A DNA stretch of 32,568 bases from Bacteroidota bacterium (lineage in GTDB: Bacteria > Bacteroidota > Rhodothermia > Rhodothermales > JANQRZ01), in NCBI GenBank assembly GCA_038746285.1, contig JBCDKT010000046.1, positions 1-32,568 of the forward strand, in the 5' to 3' direction. The notes beneath the pieces were generated by a model. The model was not told where the DNA came from and did not search any database. It saw only the letters and a program-made list of their open reading frames with translations. Below are positions 2,258-29,128 of this stretch, piece after piece; position 1 is the first letter of the stretch, and the number at the start of each line of letters is the position of its first letter. The position numbers and the translations under genes are program-made.

Positions 2258-3052
2258 TCAGGCGGAGGTCTGGTGCGCGGTCATCCCGCCCATCACACGA
2301 GCCATCATGCGGACCTTGCCCCAGCGAGGCAGCAGGGCGAGGCCGCCAGAGAGAACCTTCGTCAGCAAGCCGGGCCGCACAGTCTGCCGCCGCCCGAGCG
2401 CCGCGAGCGTGGGCTCTGCGACATCGTCCGGCGCGACCGTGGCACCCATCCTCATGTCGGCGCGTTCGGCGAAGCCGGTGCGGACGGGGCCGGGCGCGCA
2501 CACCAGCACGTCCACGCCCATTGGTTTCAGCTCGACGTGCAGCGCTTCGCCGAGCGTCTGCACGTACGCCTTCGTCGCCGCGTAGTGCGCCGCGAACGGC
2601 GTCCCCTGGAACCCGACGAGCGAGCCGAGCAAGATCAGCCCGCCGCGCCCGCGCTCGGCCAGACGCCGCCCGAAGTGGTGCACCTGCCGGAGCACAGCAC
2701 GCCCATTCACGTCGAGCATGTTCACCTCGTCCCCGAGGTCCGACTCCAGAAAGGCTCCTGACGTGCCGAAGCCCGCCGAGGCCACGAGCAGCCCCACGTC
2801 GAGGTCGGCCGTCGCCGCTTCAAGGTCGGCTAAACCAGACTCGGTTCCGAGGTCGGCTGCGACGGTGCGGGTCTCGGTGCCGTGCGAGGCGGTGAGGTCG
2901 GCAGCGAGGGTGTCGAGGACGCCGCCGCGACGGGCGACAAGGACGAGGTGCAGCCCGCGCTCGGCGAGTCGCCCGGCGAAGGCCCGGCCGATGCCGGAGG
3001 AGGCTCCGGTGACGACGGCCCACGGGCCGTACTGCGTGCGGAAAGAGGTCAT
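2258..3052 (-). CDS. Short-chain dehydrogenase/reductase (SDR)
   Basis: A classical SDR of 264 residues that would reduce or oxidise an alcohol/carbonyl pair with NAD(P)H. The cofactor motif TGASSGIG spans residues 15-22. The usual NAG is SAG (92-94). The catalytic set is Ser144, Tyr157 and Lys161 (YAATK). The arginine pair following the second strand (VARR, 40-42) suggests NADPH preference (inference). The substrate cannot be read; relatives are annotated as ketoreductases of the YqjQ/DltE type. The gene starts 4 bp after a small membrane-protein gene on the same strand, and both sit behind the promoter overlapped by a TetR-type operator. Confidence 0.9.
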   Translation of the reverse strand: MTSFRTQYGPWAVVTGASSGIGRAFAGRLAERGLHLVLVARRGGVLDTLAADLTASHGTETRTVAADLGTESGLADLEAATADLDVGLLVASAGFGTSGAFLESDLGDEVNMLDVNGRAVLRQVHHFGRRLAERGRGGLILLGSLVGFQGTPFAAHYAATKAYVQTLGEALHVELKPMGVDVLVCAPGPVRTGFAERADMRMGATVAPDDVAEPTLAALGRRQTVRPGLLTKVLSGGLALLPRWGKVRMMARVMGGMTAHQTSA

Positions 3053-3056
3053 GAGG

Positions 3057-3305
3057 CTAGGAGGCAGAAGGAGCGGAGGCTGATGCGCAGGAGCCGCACG
3101 ACGAGCCGTTGCGGTGGAAGAAGAACAGCTTCATCGTTCCCATCGCAACACCGAAGACGGTCCACCATGCCCACGCCGGGACCGAGCCGACCAGCGCAGG
3201 CGCTGCCGCGACGGTAGGGGCGAGCCCGGCCCATGTGGCGCGGCCGAACACCGTCAGGGTGAGCGTGGCGAGGATGAGGACGAGCGTTGCCTGAAGGCGA
3301 GTCAT
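3057..3305 (-). CDS. Small two-helix membrane protein
   Basis: This 82-residue protein has two hydrophobic segments (about residues 5-22 and 38-62) and a short, Ser-rich tail containing a CGSC motif. I do not recognise the family. It is the first gene after the TetR-controlled promoter and is followed 4 bp later by the SDR gene, so the two are almost certainly co-transcribed. Codon use is as GC-rich as its neighbours. The small size, hydrophobic character and position support a real gene; a role alongside the SDR is inference. Confidence 0.65.
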   Translation of the reverse strand: MTRLQATLVLILATLTLTVFGRATWAGLAPTVAAAPALVGSVPAWAWWTVFGVAMGTMKLFFFHRNGSSCGSCASASAPSAS

Positions 3306-3332
3306 GGTTGGAACCGGAGGGTGAACTGACGG

Positions 3333-3366
3333 GTGCTAAGATAGAATACTATCTGAGCACTGCCAA
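3333..3366 (-). promoter_or_regulatory. Promoter with palindromic operator (TetR-type)
   Basis: On the minus strand TTGGCA (3361-3366) and TATCTT (3338-3343) are separated by 17 bp, a plausible sigma-70-like promoter for the membrane protein/SDR pair. A 28-bp near-perfect palindrome covers 3333-3360. Its left arm GTGCTAAGATAG and right arm CTATCTGAGCAC differ from exact symmetry only at one outer position and at the centre. It overlaps the whole spacer and the -10 box, the expected place for a TetR repressor, and lies 27 bp from the tetR start, so autoregulation is likely too. Confidence 0.7.
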
Positions 3367-3386
3367 GTTGCACGCACAAGAAAAAA

Positions 3387-3977
3387 ATGCCTGACACCTA
3401 CCATCACGGCGACCTCCGCCGCGCCCTGCTCGATGAGGCCCACGCCGTCCTCGCCGAGCGCGGCGTGGGGGCGCTCTCGCTCCGCGACCTCGCCCGCCGC
3501 ACCGACGTCAGCCCGACGGCTCCGTACCACCACTTCAAGGGCAAGACCGACCTCGTCTGCGCCCTCGCCGAAGACGCGCTCGACGGCCTCGACCGTGCCC
3601 TCGCCGCCCCCGACCACGCCGACCCCGCCGAGCGCATCCGGGCGATGGGTGTGGCCTACGTCCGCTACGCCGTCGCGCATCCCGAGCGTTTCCGCCTCGC
3701 GTTCCGGCCCGAGATGGGGGACCCGTTCGCGGGTCTGGCGCAAGACGACGGGGCACTCCCCGACGACATCGCCGGGTTTCGCCACCTGCTGCGCGCCGTC
3801 TCCGAGCTAGACGCCGACGCGGCCGAGCAGGTGCCGCTGGCCGTCGCGCTGTGGAGCCTCGTCCACGGTCTCGCGGCCCTCCTCGTGGACGGCCCGCTCC
3901 GCACGCTGGCCGCCGACCCCGACCGCGTCGAGGCGCTGGCTCAGGACGTCACCAACCAGGTCTGGTTCACCGGGTAG
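3387..3977 (+). CDS. TetR-family transcriptional repressor
   Basis: This 196-residue protein has a TetR_N helix-turn-helix at about residues 8-55 (LSLRDLARRTDVSPTAPYHHFKGK in two halves) and a C-terminal ligand domain resembling the WHG subtype (WSLVHGLAALLVDG near residue 155). It probably binds the 28-bp palindrome in its own upstream region and represses the divergent membrane protein/SDR pair until an unknown small molecule releases it. Start choice follows the conserved YHHGDLRRALLDEA opening. Its 3' end converges on the hydrolase gene with 23 bp between; a short palindrome GCCCGCGGGC sits at 3992-4001. Confidence 0.9.
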   Translation: MPDTYHHGDLRRALLDEAHAVLAERGVGALSLRDLARRTDVSPTAPYHHFKGKTDLVCALAEDALDGLDRALAAPDHADPAERIRAMGVAYVRYAVAHPERFRLAFRPEMGDPFAGLAQDDGALPDDIAGFRHLLRAVSELDADAAEQVPLAVALWSLVHGLAALLVDGPLRTLAADPDRVEALAQDVTNQVWFTG

Positions 3978-4000: not shown

Positions 4001-5536
4001 CTAGGGCAGGCGCACGATGGTCTGCGAGAGCCTGACCTGCCCAGCGCGAAGGTGCACCACGTAGAGCCCGGCGCTGACCGGTCGCCCGGCTTCGTCGCGG
4101 CCGGTCCACTGTGCCTCGTGCTGTCCGGCTGCGTGCTCACCCGCCGCGAGGACTGCCACGCTGCGGCCGAGTACGTCGTACACCTCGACCCGAGCGTGAC
4201 CGGCGTCGGCGAGGTCGTAGCGCACCGTGAGGTCGGTGCGGAACGGGTTGGGGTAGACCTCGCCGAGGCCCGTCGCGGTGGCGAGGTCGCCTCGGGCGGC
4301 GGCAACTGGGGCGGCTGCGCTGGCCCCGGCGCGGGCGTCGAGCCGCGTGACGCTCCCGATGGCACCCAGCGCGAGGCCCTGCACGAAGACGCTGTCGGCC
4401 CCGGCGAGGTCGGCCAGCGGCAGGAGAACCTCAGTCGTGCCCTCGGGGCCGGCGGGACCCCGGAAGAGAATCTGCTCCGGCGCGGGATCGATGCCGACCT
4501 CGCCGACGGGCGTCGGGCGCGGGGCGCGGGTGTCCGACCACGCGAGGACGACGTCGGTGTCTGGCCGGGCGGCGGCCCCGACGACGAGCGCCGGGGCGGT
4601 CTCGCTCGGGCGCACCCAGAGCACCGGGTCCGGGGTGACAGCCTCGATCTCCACCGGCTCGCCGGCGATCCCCTCGCCGAGAATCTCGGCGTAGAGGTTC
4701 TGCTCGCCCTTGATCTCGGCGCGGAGGATGCCCGTCACGAGGCGCTTGTGGAGCCGCTTCTGGTCGGCAGCGGGAAGCGGTTCGTTGTCCGGCACCGTGT
4801 CCGTCGGCCCGCTGTGGCCCATGCCGACGACCTCGAAGTAGACGTTGCGGCTCGCGCTCTCGGCCTCGTCGAAGTAGCGCACCACCTGCGACGGCGGGAC
4901 GATGCGGTCCACCGATCCCGCGATCTGAACGTGCCGGCCGGTGTACTCGTTGATGTTGCCGATCCGTCCGTCGTTGACGAACGCCGACTGGAGCCCGATG
5001 ATCGTCTGCACGCGCTCTTCGATCCCGATCAGGAGCGCCAGCACGCCGCCGCCCATCGAGTGCCCCGAGGCCGCCCAGGGGCCGTCGTCGACCATGCCGC
5101 TAAACGGGCCGGGCGCATCGGACTGGTCCTCGACGTAGTAGAGCAGCGAGCGCGTGTCGCGGGCGTACTGCCGCTGGTTCGGGAAGAAGCCCGTCTCGGT
5201 GCCCGTCGAGGCGACGACGAAGCCCCAGCTCGCGATGTGGGTGCAGAGGTCGTCGTAGTTGCTCGGGCGGCCGAGGTAGCCGTGCTGGAAGGCGACGAGC
5301 GGAAACGGTCCGCTGCCCGCGTCCGGCGGCGCCTCGACCCCGGCGGCCGTCGCCGGATAGTAGATGCGGCCCCGAATCTGTCCCTGGCCGAACACGGCGT
5401 CTTGGAACACCACGTCGGTCCGGCCAACAAGGAAAGGCCCATCGTCTTCGATGGGCTGGGCGGGCTGCGCTATCGCCGGAGCGAGGGCGAGGAGCAGCGC
5501 GAGAGGGACGAGGCGGCGCACGGCACGGAAAAGCAT
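4001..5536 (-). CDS. Secreted alpha/beta hydrolase with T9SS sorting tail
   Basis: This 511-residue exported serine hydrolase starts with a signal peptide (residues 1-23, ending AIAQ). The alpha/beta-hydrolase core spans about 35-275. It shows an oxyanion-type HGYLG (85-89), nucleophile Ser160 in GHSMGGG, acid Asp210 in GSVDRIVP and His241 in GMGHSG. The layout resembles the dienelactone hydrolase/chlorophyllase/cutinase-like group. A middle region of about 150 residues has no recognised domain. The last 85 residues, beginning near YPNPF (about 428), match the Por-secretion C-terminal sorting domain (VYDVLGRSVAVL, SAGLYVVHL), which directs proteins through the type IX system. TATATTCG at 5569-5576 (minus strand) is a weak -7-like box upstream. 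Confidence 0.88.
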   Translation of the reverse strand: MLFRAVRRLVPLALLLALAPAIAQPAQPIEDDGPFLVGRTDVVFQDAVFGQGQIRGRIYYPATAAGVEAPPDAGSGPFPLVAFQHGYLGRPSNYDDLCTHIASWGFVVASTGTETGFFPNQRQYARDTRSLLYYVEDQSDAPGPFSGMVDDGPWAASGHSMGGGVLALLIGIEERVQTIIGLQSAFVNDGRIGNINEYTGRHVQIAGSVDRIVPPSQVVRYFDEAESASRNVYFEVVGMGHSGPTDTVPDNEPLPAADQKRLHKRLVTGILRAEIKGEQNLYAEILGEGIAGEPVEIEAVTPDPVLWVRPSETAPALVVGAAARPDTDVVLAWSDTRAPRPTPVGEVGIDPAPEQILFRGPAGPEGTTEVLLPLADLAGADSVFVQGLALGAIGSVTRLDARAGASAAAPVAAARGDLATATGLGEVYPNPFRTDLTVRYDLADAGHARVEVYDVLGRSVAVLAAGEHAAGQHEAQWTGRDEAGRPVSAGLYVVHLRAGQVRLSQTIVRLP

Positions 5537-5623: not shown

Positions 5624-6052
5624 CTACGAGAGATCGGGGGCCGGAAGCTGGTGCTGCGCCTCCCACGCCCCGTAGAGTTCGACCTCGGCGTGGAGCGTGC
5701 GGAGCACGTAGCTGAGCACCGCTGCGTCGTCGAGGTAGCCGACGACCGGGAGGAAGTCCGGGATCAGGTCCAGCGGGTTGAGGAAGTAGAGCACAGCCCC
5801 CACGATCAGCACGATCGCCTTGAGCGGGACGCGGCGGTATTCGCCGCCGAGCCACGCCCGGACGAGGCGCAGCAGCACCGGCAGGTCGGTGCGGATCTGC
5901 CCGATCTCCTCGCGGTGCTCGGCGATCTTATCGTACGCCTCGCGGACCACGGTGCGGACGCGCTTCGGGTTGCGGGTGACGCGCTCGGCCTTGCGGCGGA
6001 AGTACTCGAAGCGCGGCGGCGGCTCGGACGGTCGGGACGAAAGAAGTGGCAT
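5624..6052 (-). CDS. DUF1232 (YkvA-like) membrane protein
   Basis: This 142-residue protein ends in a DUF1232 domain (about residues 75-125) recognised by YRRVPLKAIVLIVGAVLYFLNP followed by LDLIPDFLPVVGYLDD, with one hydrophobic segment. The N-terminal half is basic and probably cytoplasmic. The biochemical role of the family is not known. I chose the ATG at 6052. An in-frame ATG at 6088 would add 12 residues, but it lies just after a TATCTTGG promoter-like box on this strand, leaving almost no leader. The gene is divergent from the Asp-box protein at 6137 and is followed 87 bp later by the secreted hydrolase on the same strand. Confidence 0.8.
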   Translation of the reverse strand: MPLLSSRPSEPPPRFEYFRRKAERVTRNPKRVRTVVREAYDKIAEHREEIGQIRTDLPVLLRLVRAWLGGEYRRVPLKAIVLIVGAVLYFLNPLDLIPDFLPVVGYLDDAAVLSYVLRTLHAEVELYGAWEAQHQLPAPDLS

Positions 6053-6136
6053 CGGGACGAGGGAAAAGTGGTGCAGCGTGCCTATCATCGGGAGGTAGTC
6101 TGCCAAGATACATCCCGCCCTTACCGTTCCAACGCT

Positions 6137-9112
6137 ATGCACCGTCTGCTTCCGCTGCTGCTCGCCGCCCTCGCTCTCCCGGCTGCTGCCCAGCCGTTCG
6201 CTCAGCCGTTCGCCCCGCCGCCTGCCGCCGATCCCGGCGACGCCGCCTCGAACCCTGTCGCCGCGACGCCCGCTGCCGAGCGCCTCGCCGGGTTCGCCGC
6301 GCGCCGGTCTCTCGCCGAGCGCTCGCTCCTCGGCAACGTCCCGTTCCGCAGCGTCGGCCCAACGGTGATGAGCGGGCGCGTCACCGACGTAGACGTTTCG
6401 CCGGCCGACCCGGCGACGTTCTACGTGGCCTACGCCTCGGGTGGGCTGTGGCGCACGACGAGCGGCGGGGCCGCCTTCGAGCCGCTCTTCGACGACCAGG
6501 CCGTGATGACGCTCGGCGACATCGCCGTCGACTGGCGCGACCCGGAGGGCGACGGCGTGACGATCTGGGCCGGGACCGGCGAGAACAACTCCAGCCGCTC
6601 CTCCTACGCCGGCACCGGGGTCTACAAGTCCACCGACGGGGGTGCGTCGTGGCAGCACCTCGGCCTCGGCGAGACGCAGCACACCGGCCGCATCGTCCTC
6701 CACCCGGGCGACCCGGAGACGGCCTGGGTCGCCGCCATCGGGCCGCTCTACTCGCCCGGCCCCGACCGCGGCGTCTACAAAACCACCGACGGCGGCGCGA
6801 CGTGGGAGCGAACGCTCTTCGTGAGCGACGATGCCGGGGTGATCGACCTCGCCCTCGATCCGTCTGACCCCGACGTGCTCTACGCCGCGGCGTGGGAGCG
6901 GACGCGGCGGGCGTGGGACTTCACCGAGGCCGGCGCGGGCTCGGGCATCTACAAATCCGCCGACGGCGGGGCGTCGTGGACGCTCCTCACCGTCGAGGGC
7001 AGCGGCTTCCCGACCGGCGCGGGCGTCGGGCGGATCGGTCTCGCGGTCTACCCCGGCAACCCGCAGACGATCTTCGCCTCGCTCGACAACCAGAACCGCC
7101 GCCCCGCCGAGGCCGACGAGGAAGCGCTGGCGCTGACAAAGGACGCGCTTCGGACGATGCCGCGCGACGCGTTCCTCGCGCTCGCCGAGGACGAGCTCAA
7201 CGACTACCTCGACCGCAACGGCTTCCCGATCTCGTACACCGCCGCCTCGCTCCTGGAGATGGTCGAGGCCGGCGACCTCGAACCGGTCGCGCTCGTCGAG
7301 TACCTCGAGGACGCCAACCGGCAACTCTTCGACACCCCGGTCGTCGGGGCCGAGGTCTACCGCTCCGACGACGGCGGGCAGACCTGGACCCGCACGCACG
7401 AGGGCTACCTCGACGACCTCGTGTTCTCCTACGGCTACTACTTCGGCGAAGTCCGCGTCGCCCCGGACAACCCCGACCGGCTCTACCTGCTCGGCGTCCC
7501 CATCATCGCCTCCTCCGACGGCGGGGCGACGTGGGAGAACATCGGGCAGGCGCACGTCCACGTCGACCACCACGCGCTCTTCGTCAACCCGAACCAGGCG
7601 GGCCACCTCGTCAGCGGCAACGACGGCGGGATCAACGTGAGCTACGACGACGGCACTTCGTGGTTCAAGGCGAACGTGCCGCCGGTCGGGCAGTTCTACA
7701 CGGTCGCCGTGGACGCCCAGGAGCCCTACCACGTCTACGGCGGCCTCCAGGACAACGGCGTCTGGGCCGGGCCGCACACCCACACGCCCGGCCCCGGCTG
7801 GCTGGCCTCGGGCGACTACGACTTCGACTGGATCATGGGCGGCGACGGGATGCAGATCGCCGTCGACACGCGGACCAACAACACGGTCTACACCGGCTTC
7901 CAGTTCGGCAACTACTTCCGCCTCGACCGTCCGGCCCCCGGCGCGGACTACGAGCGCACGCGCATCACGCCCCGCCACGACCTCGGCGAGCGCCCGCTCC
8001 GCTTCAACTGGCAGACGCCGATCCACCTCTCGCGCCACAACCAGGACATCCTCTACCTCGGCTCCCAGAAGCTCCACCGCTCGCTCGACCGGGGCGAGAC
8101 CTGGACCGCGCTCTCGGACGACCTCACGCTCGGCGGCATCCCCGGCGACGTGCCCTACGGCACCCTCACCTCGATCGACGAGTCGCCGCTTCGGTTCGGG
8201 CTGCTCGTCGTCGGGAGCGATGACGGGCTCGTGCACGTCACCGAGGACGGCGGGCGGAAGTGGACAAATGTCTCGGCGGGCCTGCCGGCGGACCTGTGGG
8301 TCAGCCGCGTCGTCGCCTCGGCGCACGACGAGCGGCGGCTCTACGCCGCTCTCAGCGGCTACCGGTGGGACCACTTCGACGCCTACGTCTACCGCTCCGA
8401 CGACCTCGGCCAGACCTGGCAGCGCATTGGGATGGATCTCCCGGCGGAGCCGGTCAACGTAGTCGTCGAGGACCCGGCGAATGAGGACCTGCTGTTCGTC
8501 GGGACCGATCACGGGCTCTACGCGAGCCTCGACGGGGGGGCGTCGTTTATGACGATGATGGGCGAGCGCACCGGCGAGAGCCTGCCGCACACGCCGGTCC
8601 ACGACGCCGTGATCCACGAGGGCGAACACCACCTCGTCCTCGGCACGCACGGCCGGTCGATCTGGGTGGCCGACCTGGAGCACGTCGCCCAACTCACGCC
8701 GGAGGTGCTGGCCGGCGGGCTTCGTCTCTTCGAGGTCGAGCCGGTGCAGCACTCGGAACGCTGGGGCGAGCAGGGCTGGACCTGGGGCGAGCCGACGACT
8801 CCCGAGGCGGTGCTGACCTACTTCGCGCCCGCCGCCGGGCAGGCCACCGTCACCGTCACCGACTCCCTCGGCACCCTCATCACCGCCACCTTCGACAGCG
8901 CCGAGGCCGGGCTGAACACGATCACCTACGACCTGACGGTCGATCCCGACGAGGTCCGCGACGACCAAGTCTCGGCCGAGGACGGGCGGGTCTACCTCGG
9001 ACCTGGCGACTACACCGTCTCGGTTGCGCTAGACGGTGAGACCGCAGCCGAGCGGCTGACCGTCGAGCCTGCTCCTGCGCCGCCTTCGAGAGGGCGGAAG
9101 AAGACGCCCTAA
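6137..9112 (+). CDS. Exported Asp-box/VPS10-sortilin-like beta-propeller protein
   Basis: This 991-residue protein has a signal peptide (about residues 1-18, LLLAALALPAAAQ) and a long repeat region rich in BNR/Asp-box motifs S/T-x-D-G-G-x-T/S-W. I count nine, including KSTDGGASW, KTTDGGATW, KSADGGASW, RSDDGGQTW, VTEDGGRKW and RSDDLGQTW. This is the layout of the sortilin/VPS10-like and glycosidase-like propellers widespread in this phylum, whose substrates are mostly unknown. The last 120 residues resemble a FlgD/Ig-like fold (LFEVEPVQ, VTVTDSLGTLI, LGPGDYTVSVALDGE), and the end is basic with no T9SS tail. The frame is open for 2.3 kb upstream, but the signal peptide fixes the start at 6137. 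Confidence 0.85.
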   Translation: MHRLLPLLLAALALPAAAQPFAQPFAPPPAADPGDAASNPVAATPAAERLAGFAARRSLAERSLLGNVPFRSVGPTVMSGRVTDVDVSPADPATFYVAYASGGLWRTTSGGAAFEPLFDDQAVMTLGDIAVDWRDPEGDGVTIWAGTGENNSSRSSYAGTGVYKSTDGGASWQHLGLGETQHTGRIVLHPGDPETAWVAAIGPLYSPGPDRGVYKTTDGGATWERTLFVSDDAGVIDLALDPSDPDVLYAAAWERTRRAWDFTEAGAGSGIYKSADGGASWTLLTVEGSGFPTGAGVGRIGLAVYPGNPQTIFASLDNQNRRPAEADEEALALTKDALRTMPRDAFLALAEDELNDYLDRNGFPISYTAASLLEMVEAGDLEPVALVEYLEDANRQLFDTPVVGAEVYRSDDGGQTWTRTHEGYLDDLVFSYGYYFGEVRVAPDNPDRLYLLGVPIIASSDGGATWENIGQAHVHVDHHALFVNPNQAGHLVSGNDGGINVSYDDGTSWFKANVPPVGQFYTVAVDAQEPYHVYGGLQDNGVWAGPHTHTPGPGWLASGDYDFDWIMGGDGMQIAVDTRTNNTVYTGFQFGNYFRLDRPAPGADYERTRITPRHDLGERPLRFNWQTPIHLSRHNQDILYLGSQKLHRSLDRGETWTALSDDLTLGGIPGDVPYGTLTSIDESPLRFGLLVVGSDDGLVHVTEDGGRKWTNVSAGLPADLWVSRVVASAHDERRLYAALSGYRWDHFDAYVYRSDDLGQTWQRIGMDLPAEPVNVVVEDPANEDLLFVGTDHGLYASLDGGASFMTMMGERTGESLPHTPVHDAVIHEGEHHLVLGTHGRSIWVADLEHVAQLTPEVLAGGLRLFEVEPVQHSERWGEQGWTWGEPTTPEAVLTYFAPAAGQATVTVTDSLGTLITATFDSAEAGLNTITYDLTVDPDEVRDDQVSAEDGRVYLGPGDYTVSVALDGETAAERLTVEPAPAPPSRGRKKTP

Positions 9113-14355: not shown

Positions 14356-15171
14356 TCACGCCTGCACGAACTCGTCCTCGGCGGGAGGCGGGTCCTCGGC
14401 GCGGCGCTGGATGAGGGCCTCGGTGAGCCGCTCGCGCAGCTCTTCCGGCGAGAGGGCCGTCTGGATCACACCGTCCTCGGCGACCGAGATGCGCCCCGTC
14501 TCCTCGCTCGTGACGACGACGAAGGCATCGGTCCGCTCGGTCAGGCCGACGGCGGCGCGGTGACGCAGGCCGAGCTGCGGGTCGAGGCGGCGCGCGTCGG
14601 AAACGGGGAGGATGCAGCGGGCCGCGGCCACCTTCTGGTCCTCGATGATGACGGCCCCGTCGTGCAGCGGCGAGTTCGGGAAGAACACGCTCGTCAGGAG
14701 GTCGCGCTCGACGTTGGCGTTGATCGCGGTCCCGCTCTCGATGTAGTTGCGCAGCCCGGACGAGCGCGAGAACACCGTCAGCGACCCGATCCGGTTCTCG
14801 GACATCTCGCGCGCCGCCGCCACCATTTCCTCGATGGTCCGCTCCCGGGCCGGCGTCGCCACGAAGCGGCTGACGAGCGGGTTGCGGCCGAGCATGAACA
14901 GGAGCCGCCGGATCTCGGGCTGGAAGAGGATGATGACGACCACCACGAACACCTCGCTCACCGCCCCGAAGAGGACCTCGAGCGTCGTCAGCCCGAGGAA
15001 CTGGACGAGCACGTTGAGCCCGTAGATCACGAGCAGCAGGAGCGACACCTGCACGGCGATCGTTCCCCGGATCAGCCGGTAGAGCTGGTAGACCAGGAAG
15101 GCGACGATGAGGATGTCGAGCACGTCCTTCAGCTCGAACGGGATGAAGAAGACCTCGAGCGCCAGCCTCAT
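14356..15171 (-). CDS. cdaA: Diadenylate cyclase CdaA
   Basis: The enzyme makes cyclic di-AMP from two ATP; it is a 271-residue membrane-anchored protein of normal length. Three hydrophobic helices lie at about residues 18-33, 40-58 and 68-84. The DAC domain follows, with DGA at 171-173 (PLHDGAVII) and RHR at 203-205 (GLRHRAAVG), the two motifs that bind ATP and metal. The start ATG overlaps the folP stop (bases 15168-15171 on the minus strand read ATGA), so translation is coupled. This gene order, folP then cdaA, is common in Bacteroidota. c-di-AMP controls osmolyte and potassium transport and cell-wall balance in other bacteria. Confidence 0.95.
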   Translation of the reverse strand: MRLALEVFFIPFELKDVLDILIVAFLVYQLYRLIRGTIAVQVSLLLLVIYGLNVLVQFLGLTTLEVLFGAVSEVFVVVVIILFQPEIRRLLFMLGRNPLVSRFVATPARERTIEEMVAAAREMSENRIGSLTVFSRSSGLRNYIESGTAINANVERDLLTSVFFPNSPLHDGAVIIEDQKVAAARCILPVSDARRLDPQLGLRHRAAVGLTERTDAFVVVTSEETGRISVAEDGVIQTALSPEELRERLTEALIQRRAEDPPPAEDEFVQA

Positions 15172-16088
15172 GGCCTCGCCTCCCGAAGCGCGCCGCCGGC
15201 CTCGGCTGCGGCCGTTAGCCCCGCCAACATCTCGACTGTCTCCCGGACGTCGTGCGTGCGGACGATCGACGCGCCGCCGAGCACGGCCACCGCCGTCATG
15301 CCGAGCGTCCCGAACAGCCGCTCGCCGACCGGCACCGGCTGCTCCACTGTGCCGAGCACCGCGCCCACCGTGCTCTTGCGCGAGATGCCGACCAGCACCG
15401 GCCGCCCAACTTCCAGCAGCGCGTCCACGCGCCCAACGAGGCACAGGTTTTCCGCCACCGACTTGCCGAACCCGAAGCCGGGATCGAGGACGACGTCGCG
15501 GACGCCCGCCGCCTCGGCCGCGTGCACCGACGTCCGGAGCGACGCCGCCACGTCGGCCACGACGTCGGCGTAGGCGTGCTCGTGCGGCATCGCGCCGGGC
15601 CGCCCGAGCGAGTGCATCACAATGAGCGGAGCGCCGGCCCGAGCTGCGGCGCGGGCGGCCCCGTCGCCGTAGCGCAGGCCGGTGATGTCGTTGACCAGGT
15701 GCGCGCCCGCGCCGAGCGCGGCCTCGGCCACCACCGGCTTGTAGGTGTCCACCGACAGCAGCGCCTCCGGCAGCCGCGCCGCCAGCGCCTCGACGACCGG
15801 GAGGACGCGCCGCATCTCCTCGTCCGCCGCGACCGCCTCGGCCCCGTCGCCGTAGACCGCGCCGCGCGGCCGCGAGGACTCGCCCCCGATGTCGATCAGA
15901 ACCGCACCCTCCTCCAGCATCGTCTCGGCGCGGCGGAGGGCGTCGCCGGGGTCGAGGAAGTCGCCGCCGTCGGAGAACGAGTCCGGGGTCACGTTCAGGA
16001 TGCCCATGACGTGCGCCCGCCCCGGCTGGCAGTCGAGGACGCGGCCGCGGCAGTCGAGGAGGAAGGGGTCGGAGGAGGCAGGGCGCAT
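15168..16088 (-). CDS. folP: Dihydropteroate synthase
   Basis: It condenses p-aminobenzoate with hydroxymethyl-dihydropterin diphosphate in folate synthesis and is the sulfonamide target. The 306-residue protein shows both DHPS signatures: MGILNVTPDSFSDGG (residues 28-42) and LIDIGGESSRPRG. It also has DTYKP, HLVNDITG, DPGFGFGK and the sulfonamide-loop GISRKS. I chose the ATG at 16088 (MRPASSDPFLLDCRG); an ATG at 16139 would add 17 residues that look non-homologous. It is the first gene of the folP-cdaA-pcm-popT run and is divergent from sigma factor A. Confidence 0.95.
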   Translation of the reverse strand: MRPASSDPFLLDCRGRVLDCQPGRAHVMGILNVTPDSFSDGGDFLDPGDALRRAETMLEEGAVLIDIGGESSRPRGAVYGDGAEAVAADEEMRRVLPVVEALAARLPEALLSVDTYKPVVAEAALGAGAHLVNDITGLRYGDGAARAAARAGAPLIVMHSLGRPGAMPHEHAYADVVADVAASLRTSVHAAEAAGVRDVVLDPGFGFGKSVAENLCLVGRVDALLEVGRPVLVGISRKSTVGAVLGTVEQPVPVGERLFGTLGMTAVAVLGGASIVRTHDVRETVEMLAGLTAAAEAGGALREARP

Positions 16089-16324
16089 AGCACCGGAGAG
16101 GGCGGGGCGAAATCTACGAAGCCCAGCGCCGCGCCGCACGGTCGGGAGTGGGTGGCGGGTGAGAGGCAGACGCAGCGCGGCGGGGAACCTGAGGCACCGG
16201 CTCTTCCGTCTAACAAAAGCAGCCTCGTGCCGGCCTCCGTGCCGAGGTGTGCGACTCGACTAATCGAAAGACGCTTGCGCTGCTGTGCTTACTGTTCCGT
16301 TGTAGTACACAACCGGCTGTTCCC

Positions 16325-17164
16325 ATGTACGTCCCTCGCCAGCAGCGGATGTTGGACCAGTACCTCCAGGAGATCGGGCAGATTCCGCTCCTGAAGCCCG
16401 AGCAGGAAGTCGCCCTTGCTCAGCGGATCAAGGACGGGGACGACGAGGCACTTCAGATCCTGGTCCGGTCCAACCTCCGGTTCGTCGTCTCGGTGGCGAA
16501 GAAGTACCAGGGGCAGGGCCTCACGCTCTCCGACCTCATCAACGAGGGCAACTACGGCCTCATCAAGGCGGCCCAGCGCTTCGACGAGACGCGCGGGTTC
16601 AAGTTCATCTCGTACGCCGTGTGGTGGATCCGGCAGGCCATCTTCCAGGCCCTCGCCGAGCAGAGCCGCGTCGTCCGCCTCCCGCTCAACCGCATCGGGA
16701 CGATCTCGAAGGTCCGCAAGACGAGCGCGCTCCTCGCCCAGCGCCACGACCGCGACCCCAACATCGACGAGCTGGCCGCCGAGCTCGACATCAACCCGGA
16801 GAAGGTCCGGGAGGCGCTCAAGCACTCCGGCCGCCACCTCTCGGTAGATGCCCCCTTCGGCGAGGACGACGACAACTCGCTCCTCGACGTGCTCCCGAGC
16901 GAGCACGAGGCCGCGCCGGACCACTACCTCGTCGGCGAGAGCCTGAAGATCGACGTCGAGCGGGCGCTCGGCGCGCTGCACGCCCGCGAGGCGGAGATCA
17001 CGCGGCTCTACTTCGGCATCGGGCGGGAGCACCCGCTGACGCTGGAGGAGATCGGGCAGCGCTTCGACCTGACGCGCGAGCGGGTCCGGCAGATCAAGGA
17101 GAAGGCGCTCCGCAAGCTCCGCCAGCGCCACCGACGCGACGACCTCCGGGTCCACGTCGGCTGA
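16325..17164 (+). CDS. RpoD-like sigma-70 factor, paralogue A
   Basis: This 279-residue sigma factor of the Bacteroidota type lacks region 1.1. Region 1.2 begins at [15 protein letters not shown]. Region 2 has [19 protein letters not shown] and [19 protein letters not shown] for -10 recognition. Region 3 has [14 protein letters not shown], and region 4.2 has [20 protein letters not shown] with the -35 helix. The start [14 protein letters not shown] is shared with paralogue B at 28289; the frame upstream to 16247 is open but unlike it. No Shine-Dalgarno is seen. Length and intact regions fit a group 1/2 factor; I cannot tell which paralogue is the primary one. The 236-bp gap from folP holds no clear box. 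Confidence 0.93.
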
Positions 17165-17278: not shown

Positions 17279-21730
<4,452 letters not shown>

Positions 21731-28288: not shown

Positions 28289-29128
28289 ATGTACGTTCCC
28301 CGACAGCAGCGGATGCTGGACCAGTACCTGGATGAAATCAGCCAGGTTGAGCTGCTCACGCCCGACGAAGAGGTAGACCTCGCGCAGCGGATCAAGCAGG
28401 GGGACCAGGAGGCGCTCCACAAGCTCGTGCGGGCCAACCTCCGGTTCGTCGTCTCGGTGGCGAAGAAGTACCAGGGGCAGGGCCTCACGCTCTCCGACCT
28501 CATCTCGGAAGGCAACTACGGGCTCGTCAAAGCCGCCCAGCGCTTCGACGAGACGCGCGGGTTCAAGTTCATCTCGTACGCCGTGTGGTGGATCCGGCAG
28601 TCGATCCTGAAGGCGCTCTCGGACCAGGCCCGCACCGTCCGCCTGCCGCAGAACCGGATCGGGACGCTCTCGAAGATGCGCAAGGCCAGCGCTCGCCTCG
28701 CCCAGGAGCACGGCCGCGCCCCGACCGTCGACGAACTCGCGGGCGAGCTCGAGATGAAGCCGCACAAAGTCGAGGAGGGCTTCCGCCACGGTCGCCGCTC
28801 GCTCTCGATGGACGCCCCGTTCTCCGAGGACGGCACCCAGAGCCTGCTCGACGTGGTCCCCGACGAAGAGCTCGTCTCGCCTGACGAGCCGATCACGGCC
28901 GAGTCGATCAAGATCGACGTCGAGCGCATCCTCTGCCAGCTTCAGCCGCGCGAGGCCGAGATCACCCGGCTCTACTTCGGGATCGGCCGCGAGCGTCCGC
29001 TGACGCTCGGTGCCATCGGCGAGCAGATCGGGCTGACGCGCGAGCGCGTGCGGCAGATCAAGGAGAAGGCGCTCCGCAAGCTCCGCCGCCACCACGCCCA
29101 CGCCGACATCCGGGCGCACCTCAACTAG
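28289..29128 (+). CDS. RpoD-like sigma-70 factor, paralogue B
   Basis: This 279-residue factor has the same length as paralogue A at 16325 and the same first 14 residues. Regions 1.2, 2, 3 and 4 are all present: [19 protein letters not shown] for -10 recognition and [18 protein letters not shown] for the -35 helix. Differences cluster in region 3 and in the turn before the region 4.2 helix (LGAIGEQIG here, LEEIGQRFD in A). The two genes share tracts of 70 and 66 identical bases (see findings). It follows tRNA-Ser and a hairpin, and is followed 101 bp later by a small membrane-protein gene. No Shine-Dalgarno is seen. Confidence 0.93.
   Translation: MYVPRQQRMLDQYLDEISQVELLTPDEEVDLAQRIKQGDQEALHKLVRANLRFVVSVAKKYQGQGLTLSDLISEGNYGLVKAAQRFDETRGFKFISYAVWWIRQSILKALSDQARTVRLPQNRIGTLSKMRKASARLAQEHGRAPTVDELAGELEMKPHKVEEGFRHGRRSLSMDAPFSEDGTQSLLDVVPDEELVSPDEPITAESIKIDVERILCQLQPREAEITRLYFGIGRERPLTLGAIGEQIGLTRERVRQIKEKALRKLRRHHAHADIRAHLN

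Follow-up and report, generated by a model that had tools for sequence, protein, structure and literature searches.

The hydrolase gene considered here occupies positions 4001-5536 of the minus strand (the strand was absent from the initial annotation) in the window, i.e., the whole 32,568-nucleotide stretch of Rhodothermales DNA that was analysed (contig JBCDKT010000046.1 of assembly GCA_038746285.1). This 511-residue open reading frame, which begins with ATG, is a genuine gene. Its G+C content at the three codon positions (0.75/0.50/0.90) resembles that of other plausible genes of the window, and differences from the copy in a congener are mostly silent, with dN/dS values of 0.088 for the hydrolase core, 0.17 for the middle region and 0.29 for the tail; the core is under purifying selection. 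The reading frame, Pfam, TIGR04183 and alignment together define a protein of four parts: signal peptide, α/β hydrolase core, planctomycete-type C-terminal domain and sorting tail of the type IX secretion system (T9SS). A probable Sec signal peptide (residues 1-23; 5468-5536) was recognized by eye from its charged start, hydrophobic run and AxA motif, with cleavage guessed to follow AIA. The PETase/cutinase-like core (residues 29-287; 4676-5452) is followed by the middle domain (residues 288-405; 4322-4675), which alignments and profiles show to be homologous to a C-terminal domain of planctomycete proteins. An Ala-rich linker (residues 406-424; 4265-4321), delimited by alignment and of low pLDDT, then leads from the donor-type domain to a FlgD_ig-like T9SS type A sorting tail (residues 425-511; 4004-4264).

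Gene order in the congener is the same as in the window, including the hydrolase, TetR and short-chain dehydrogenase (SDR) genes. A 14-kb stretch from another genus of the family matches the cobalamin adenosyltransferase gene and those lying immediately upstream of the hydrolase, and within that stretch there is no match to the hydrolase, TetR or SDR genes. The comparison points to acquisition by the genus (or to loss from the other one) and argues against a mis-binned contig. The SDR and TetR-type genes lie beside the hydrolase at 2258-3977, the regulator gene being convergent with it at a distance of 23 bases; the two may have been gained together with the hydrolase, or may regulate it. An open reading frame of 1114 codons on the minus strand (5624-8968) was considered as the upstream neighbor and rejected, as it has mostly an antisense codon-position pattern. 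Its codon-position G+C is inverted from about position 6224 onward, the opposite plus strand at 6149-9109 matches Sortilin-Vps10/BNR propeller families (5624-9112 region), and the 5624-6200 part, with a match to DUF1232, is the sole portion resembling a minus-strand gene. Elsewhere in the window are a 1483-residue hybrid two-component protein (17279-21730) with propeller, Y_Y_Y, kinase, receiver and Hpt domains, and two separate sigma-70 factors, each with regions 1.2 to 4, encoded less than 12 kb apart (16247-17164 and 28289-29128). At 14356-16139 a CdaA-type diadenylate cyclase reading frame overlaps one for a pterin-binding (dihydropteroate-synthase-like) protein by 277 bases as listed, so that a start codon there probably needs revision.

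The core scores 46.5 bits against the PETase family PF12740 (Pfam cut-off 28) over residues 31-245, and it is placed in the family by this score together with Ser, Asp and His in α/β hydrolase order. Translation and alignment bear out the residues named by the initial annotation: HGY at 85-87, the nucleophile Ser160 (5057-5059) within GHSMGGG, and the triad residues Asp210 (4907-4909) and His241 (4814-4816). In a 74-sequence alignment Ser160 and Asp210 are invariant and His241 is at least 90% conserved, the conservation of Ser160 being partly a matter of set selection, since sequences were gathered through the GHSMGGG pattern. The AlphaFold model built with 74-sequence input has a mean pLDDT of 82.4, and most of its core exceeds 90. 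Alignment A3, made for the structure, holds 73 of the at least 80 loci of the pattern scan, 68 of the 73 being given as core regions only; L055, L081, L090, L099, L106, L107 and L110 were omitted because they were truncated or short, had odd starts or nearly duplicated another locus.

Structure comparison with the PDB gave PET hydrolases, cutinases or variants thereof in all 50 rows listed by Foldseek, and likewise in the 50 listed by VIA-align, where GlacPETase aligns at Z 32.5 (rmsd 2.0 Å, 252 residues) and IsPETase entries at Z about 30. Over the IsPETase/cutinase-type rows listed, the likeness amounts to Z of about 30-32, rmsd of 2.0-2.4 Å, 240-254 aligned residues and 17-23% identity, and extends to the GHSMGGG-type elbow. 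The present protein differs from them in an alanine for the clamp tryptophan, in having no possible disulfide and in its two added C-terminal domains. Matches in a viral structure library were to general α/β hydrolases and some sorting-domain proteins and were of no use for identification. The earlier suggestion of a polyester-hydrolase-like fold stands, both by PF12740 and because the solved structures listed as nearest belong to PET hydrolases. Platelet-activating-factor acetylhydrolases (PAF-AH), which that suggestion had named as the relatives whose closer resemblance would speak against it, are absent from the 50 rows listed for each PDB comparison. Pfam does record passing scores for PAF-AH (PF03403, 25.4 bits, cut-off 20, residues 76-110) and for chlorophyllase (PF07224, 28.9 bits, cut-off 26, residues 74-164), from which a lipid esterase of either kind with a more closed site might be argued. 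We regard this as most improbable, because the PAF-AH match takes in 35 of 372 profile positions, as against the PETase match over residues 31-245, and because the rows listed in both PDB comparisons belong to PET hydrolases or cutinases; PAF-AH identity as such was set aside on the 35-residue span.

PET cleavage is nevertheless not predicted. The position of the clamp tryptophan (W185 of IsPETase) is occupied by Ala185 (4982-4984) in profile and row alignments, which are sequence-based, and the protein has a single cysteine, residue 98, so that it has neither the C-terminal disulfide, impossible with one cysteine, nor the cysteines of the M5 motif. On these two features PET activity is not indicated, and a lipid or a natural polyester, rather than PET, is the probable substrate in nature. 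Among 41 rows compared at the clamp position, one (L152) has Trp and four are gapped. The planctomycete loci L156, L158, L159 and L160, in which GHSNG replaces GHSMG and the clamp position is gapped, form a divergent branch of the family.

What is reported of PET30 and related enzymes weakens any verdict on PET activity drawn from pocket residues. Active PET30 has a Phe-Met-Tyr pocket, and its change to Trp abolished activity; PET38 (Phe-Met-Ala) was inactive, but the inactive enzymes, PET38 among them, were produced poorly, and one carries Phe-Met-Trp; the study cautions that single pocket residues are insufficient to decide activity (PMC8767016). A study of ocean PETases reports activity solely in enzymes whose M5 motif bears cysteine (PMC12224614). 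It might be held that the core is a true hydrolase of PET or aromatic polyesters, with the middle domain as its polymer-binding module. The PETase fold at VIA Z of about 30-32, the activity of PET30 with Tyr for Trp, and the Trp of the relative L152 would all accord with this, but the combination of Ala185 and a single cysteine, and the association of activity with the M5 motif, count against it. The middle domain, moreover, ends many proteins that are not hydrolases, which better fits a general address or anchor, and we judge a polymer-degrading assembly of this kind unlikely.

Among characterized enzymes, PET30 of Kaistella jeonii (PDB 7pzj) and PET27 of Aequorivita have the same fold, an Asp-His-Ser triad, a signal peptide and a PorC/TIGR04183 tail, as described in PMC8767016; since T9SS-tailed esterases of PETase fold are thus already known, the present enzyme is not new in kind. 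It differs in a sequence match to 7pzj of only E 2.8e-5, in a Tyr-Met-Ala pocket versus Phe-Met-Tyr or Phe-Met-Trp in PET30/PET27 (PMC8767016), in an extra domain of ~118 residues before the tail, and in having planctomycete proteins as nearest relatives. PET38 of Fluviicola taffensis, likened here from its published description, also has a T9SS tail and Ala as the last of its three pocket residues (Phe-Met-Ala), but was inactive and poorly produced (PMC8767016). The proposed affinity to Bacteroidota polyester hydrolases therefore holds for layout and fold and fails for close kinship with PET30.

The sorting tail matches TIGR04183 at 31.6 bits (NCBIfam cut-off 23; residues 427-508) and FlgD_ig at 38.9 bits (Pfam cut-off 27; residues 437-497), while the Pfam Por_Secre_tail family scores 24.9, slightly under its cut-off of 27. 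Such tails number at least 150 in each of two genomes of the host genus and none in four planctomycete genomes; in 14 control genomes the same search matched two, one of them above the cut-off. PorU (NF033707), which is the evidence taken for T9SS machinery in the host, scores above its cut-off in the genome of the window and in the congener and is absent from the four planctomycetes, and among the 14 control genomes two match and none exceeds the cut-off. The layout of a T9SS cargo, put forward in the initial annotation, is supported by the two tail families and the host PorU, with export itself predicted.

The middle region had been described as lacking any recognized fold. This is correct for Pfam, in which neither the query domain nor three planctomycete examples find a match, and for NCBIfam, in which the query domain obtains a chance-level match alone (E 0.12), but profile searches show it to be homologous to an uncatalogued planctomycete domain. 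The planctomycete proteins of L034-L037 can be aligned with the query as far as the middle region, with which they end, and the query and its congener copy (L033) continue into the T9SS tail. Together with L146, these loci, all from metagenome-assembled genomes, have cores 46-61% identical to the query and the same middle domain, and differ in having no T9SS tail, in having Trp for Tyr87, and in ending with the middle domain. In all eight non-hydrolase planctomycete examples, too, no more than 14 residues separate the end of the domain match from the stop codon. To avoid circularity a profile was restricted to these eight non-hydrolases, and it finds the middle region of the query at E 1.5e-6, the best of 200 shuffled sequences reaching 0.005; profile-profile comparison of the domain gave 97.8-98.1%. 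After the middle domain there are 106 residues here and 108 in the congener, versus 0-14 in the planctomycete examples examined. This departure from the very C-terminus indicates a fusion. The gene beside the homologue in L035 (L035:1972-2325, minus strand) also ends in a middle domain, a weak match (E 0.00068) that stops five residues before its end. Description of the domain as all-beta comes from the full-length model, in which the block has pLDDT 43-84; the L035 domain folded alone from its single sequence has a mean pLDDT of 36.3, and the full-length VIA comparison, spanning residues 25-306, barely covers the domain.

The distribution of the domain is one-sided. A region profile locates it at four to eight places per genome in four planctomycetes and at one in each genome of the host genus; with this profile, the narrower of those used, all 86 candidates in the window's genome were scored and gave that one match. 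A widened profile places it at at least 94, at least 63, at least 75 and 21 sites in the four planctomycete genomes (the first three being lower bounds, with 150 candidates scored in each) and at one in the congener. Of seven further genomes, which include several planctomycetes, six gave none and one a marginal match, so that across the genomes tried the domain appears confined to part of the Planctomycetota. Within the order, 3 of 114 genomes match it, namely through this gene, the congener copy and one sequence with two internal stops, and the same three account for the matches in the 395-genome phylum sample (the best 41 and the best 11 candidates per genome, respectively, were scored). 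By the counts of tails and middle domains across genomes, each of the two C-terminal domains is native to one side only. A literature search on the domain, the planctomycete family and T9SS tails on transferred genes, judged by titles and abstract openings, returned neither the domain nor the fusion.

The relatives of the whole enzyme point in the same direction, to an origin that the initial annotation had overlooked. A close copy (86% identity) occurs within the 114 genomes of the order in the congener only (L033; genome G468 is the same as G032 in contig and coordinates), and two others have partial matches. The phylum sample of 395 genomes has 23 with some match, T9SS-tailed proteins such as L013 included, and the best by E-value outside the genus is 30% identical. 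In a scan of one genome per species, made with a single pattern around GHSMGGG and yielding at least 80 loci, the matches listed run from L033 (88% identical) to four Planctomycetota loci with cores 46-57% identical and then to 34% or less. A sample of the class to which one of these planctomycetes belongs matches in 76 of 101 genomes at E <= 0.001, many of them weakly, with best cores of 61-62%. Among the matches listed, then, it is Planctomycetota proteins lacking a T9SS tail that stand closest to the enzyme outside its own genus.

A tree of 42 rows was built from the query, L033, 21 loci of the class search and 19 further loci of the pattern scan (20 of the at least 80, with L033), L034-L037 appearing in it as L141-L144. 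Both Rhodothermales rows share a clade of 14 (100/96) with 12 planctomycete rows, and this clade lies inside a group of 23 rows (100/100) that excludes four Bacteroidota homologues; a tree of 23 rows concurs (99/98). Nesting of the Rhodothermales copies within the planctomycetes is favored by these topologies. The tree was set aside as proof of direction, since approximately unbiased (AU) tests did not reject trees in which the planctomycetes were held together (p 0.384) or the 12 near rows were (p 0.0988). The spread of the middle domain and of T9SS tails is the stronger argument for direction.

Two other histories were weighed. An ordinary polyester hydrolase of the PET27/PET30 kind, inherited vertically within the Bacteroidota and bearing a lineage-specific insert between core and tail, would explain the T9SS tail on a PETase fold and the 23 matching genomes of the phylum, among them that of the T9SS-tailed L013. 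It is highly improbable, given that identity is 30% for the match ranking first by E-value in the phylum sample outside the genus and reaches 61-62% for planctomycete cores, that the four Bacteroidota homologues lie beyond the 100/100 branch, and that the middle domain elsewhere in the phylum sample amounts to the one stop-broken match. Transfer in reverse, in which the tailed enzyme arose in Rhodothermota and planctomycetes received the gene and lost the tail, draws on the basal Rhodothermales position that the AU tests allow. It is very unlikely, as the middle domain occurs at 21 to at least 94 places per planctomycete genome and in the host genus in this gene only, the family is common across the planctomycete class (matches in 76 of 101 genomes at E <= 0.001, many of them weak), and the close copy within the order sample is limited to the genus.

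What we consider likely is that the ancestor of this Rhodothermales genus gained a planctomycete exoenzyme, which kept its original C-terminal domain and had a T9SS tail joined behind that domain. The gene would have moved from a Planctomycetota lineage with its C-terminal beta domain retained, and attachment of a host type IX sorting tail behind that domain would amount to re-addressing of the product. The protein would then be exported through Sec by its N-terminal signal, T9SS would recognize the Ig-like tail and carry the protein across the outer membrane, and PorU, for which the host has the gene, would remove the tail or exchange it for an anchor. At the surface or outside the cell, the Ser160-Asp210-His241 triad would be expected from conservation and fold to hydrolyze ester bonds, with an oxyanion hole presumably formed by the backbone amides of Tyr87 and Met161. 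The middle domain, presumably a former tag or binding module of the donor, would now be internal; in the donor it was probably a retention or binding module. A bolder reading, offered tentatively and with doubt, is that the domain is a tag for sorting or surface retention, belonging to an as yet undescribed export route that part of the Planctomycetota would use, and the gene a natural address-swap: the tag would stand at the C-terminus of tens of secreted-looking but otherwise unrelated proteins in each genome, and here a T9SS tag would have been added behind it, overriding it.

What is new in this enzyme, then, is its probable planctomycete origin and the donor C-terminal domain that it retains between core and sorting tail. 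The chimera illustrates how a foreign exoenzyme may be put onto the export route of its host, while the retained donor domain reveals its source. It also brings to light a domain that neither Pfam nor NCBIfam matches and that stands at the end of tens of secreted-looking proteins in certain planctomycetes. Extracellular targeting in planctomycetes is, to our knowledge, little understood, and the middle domain offers a concrete candidate signal for it.
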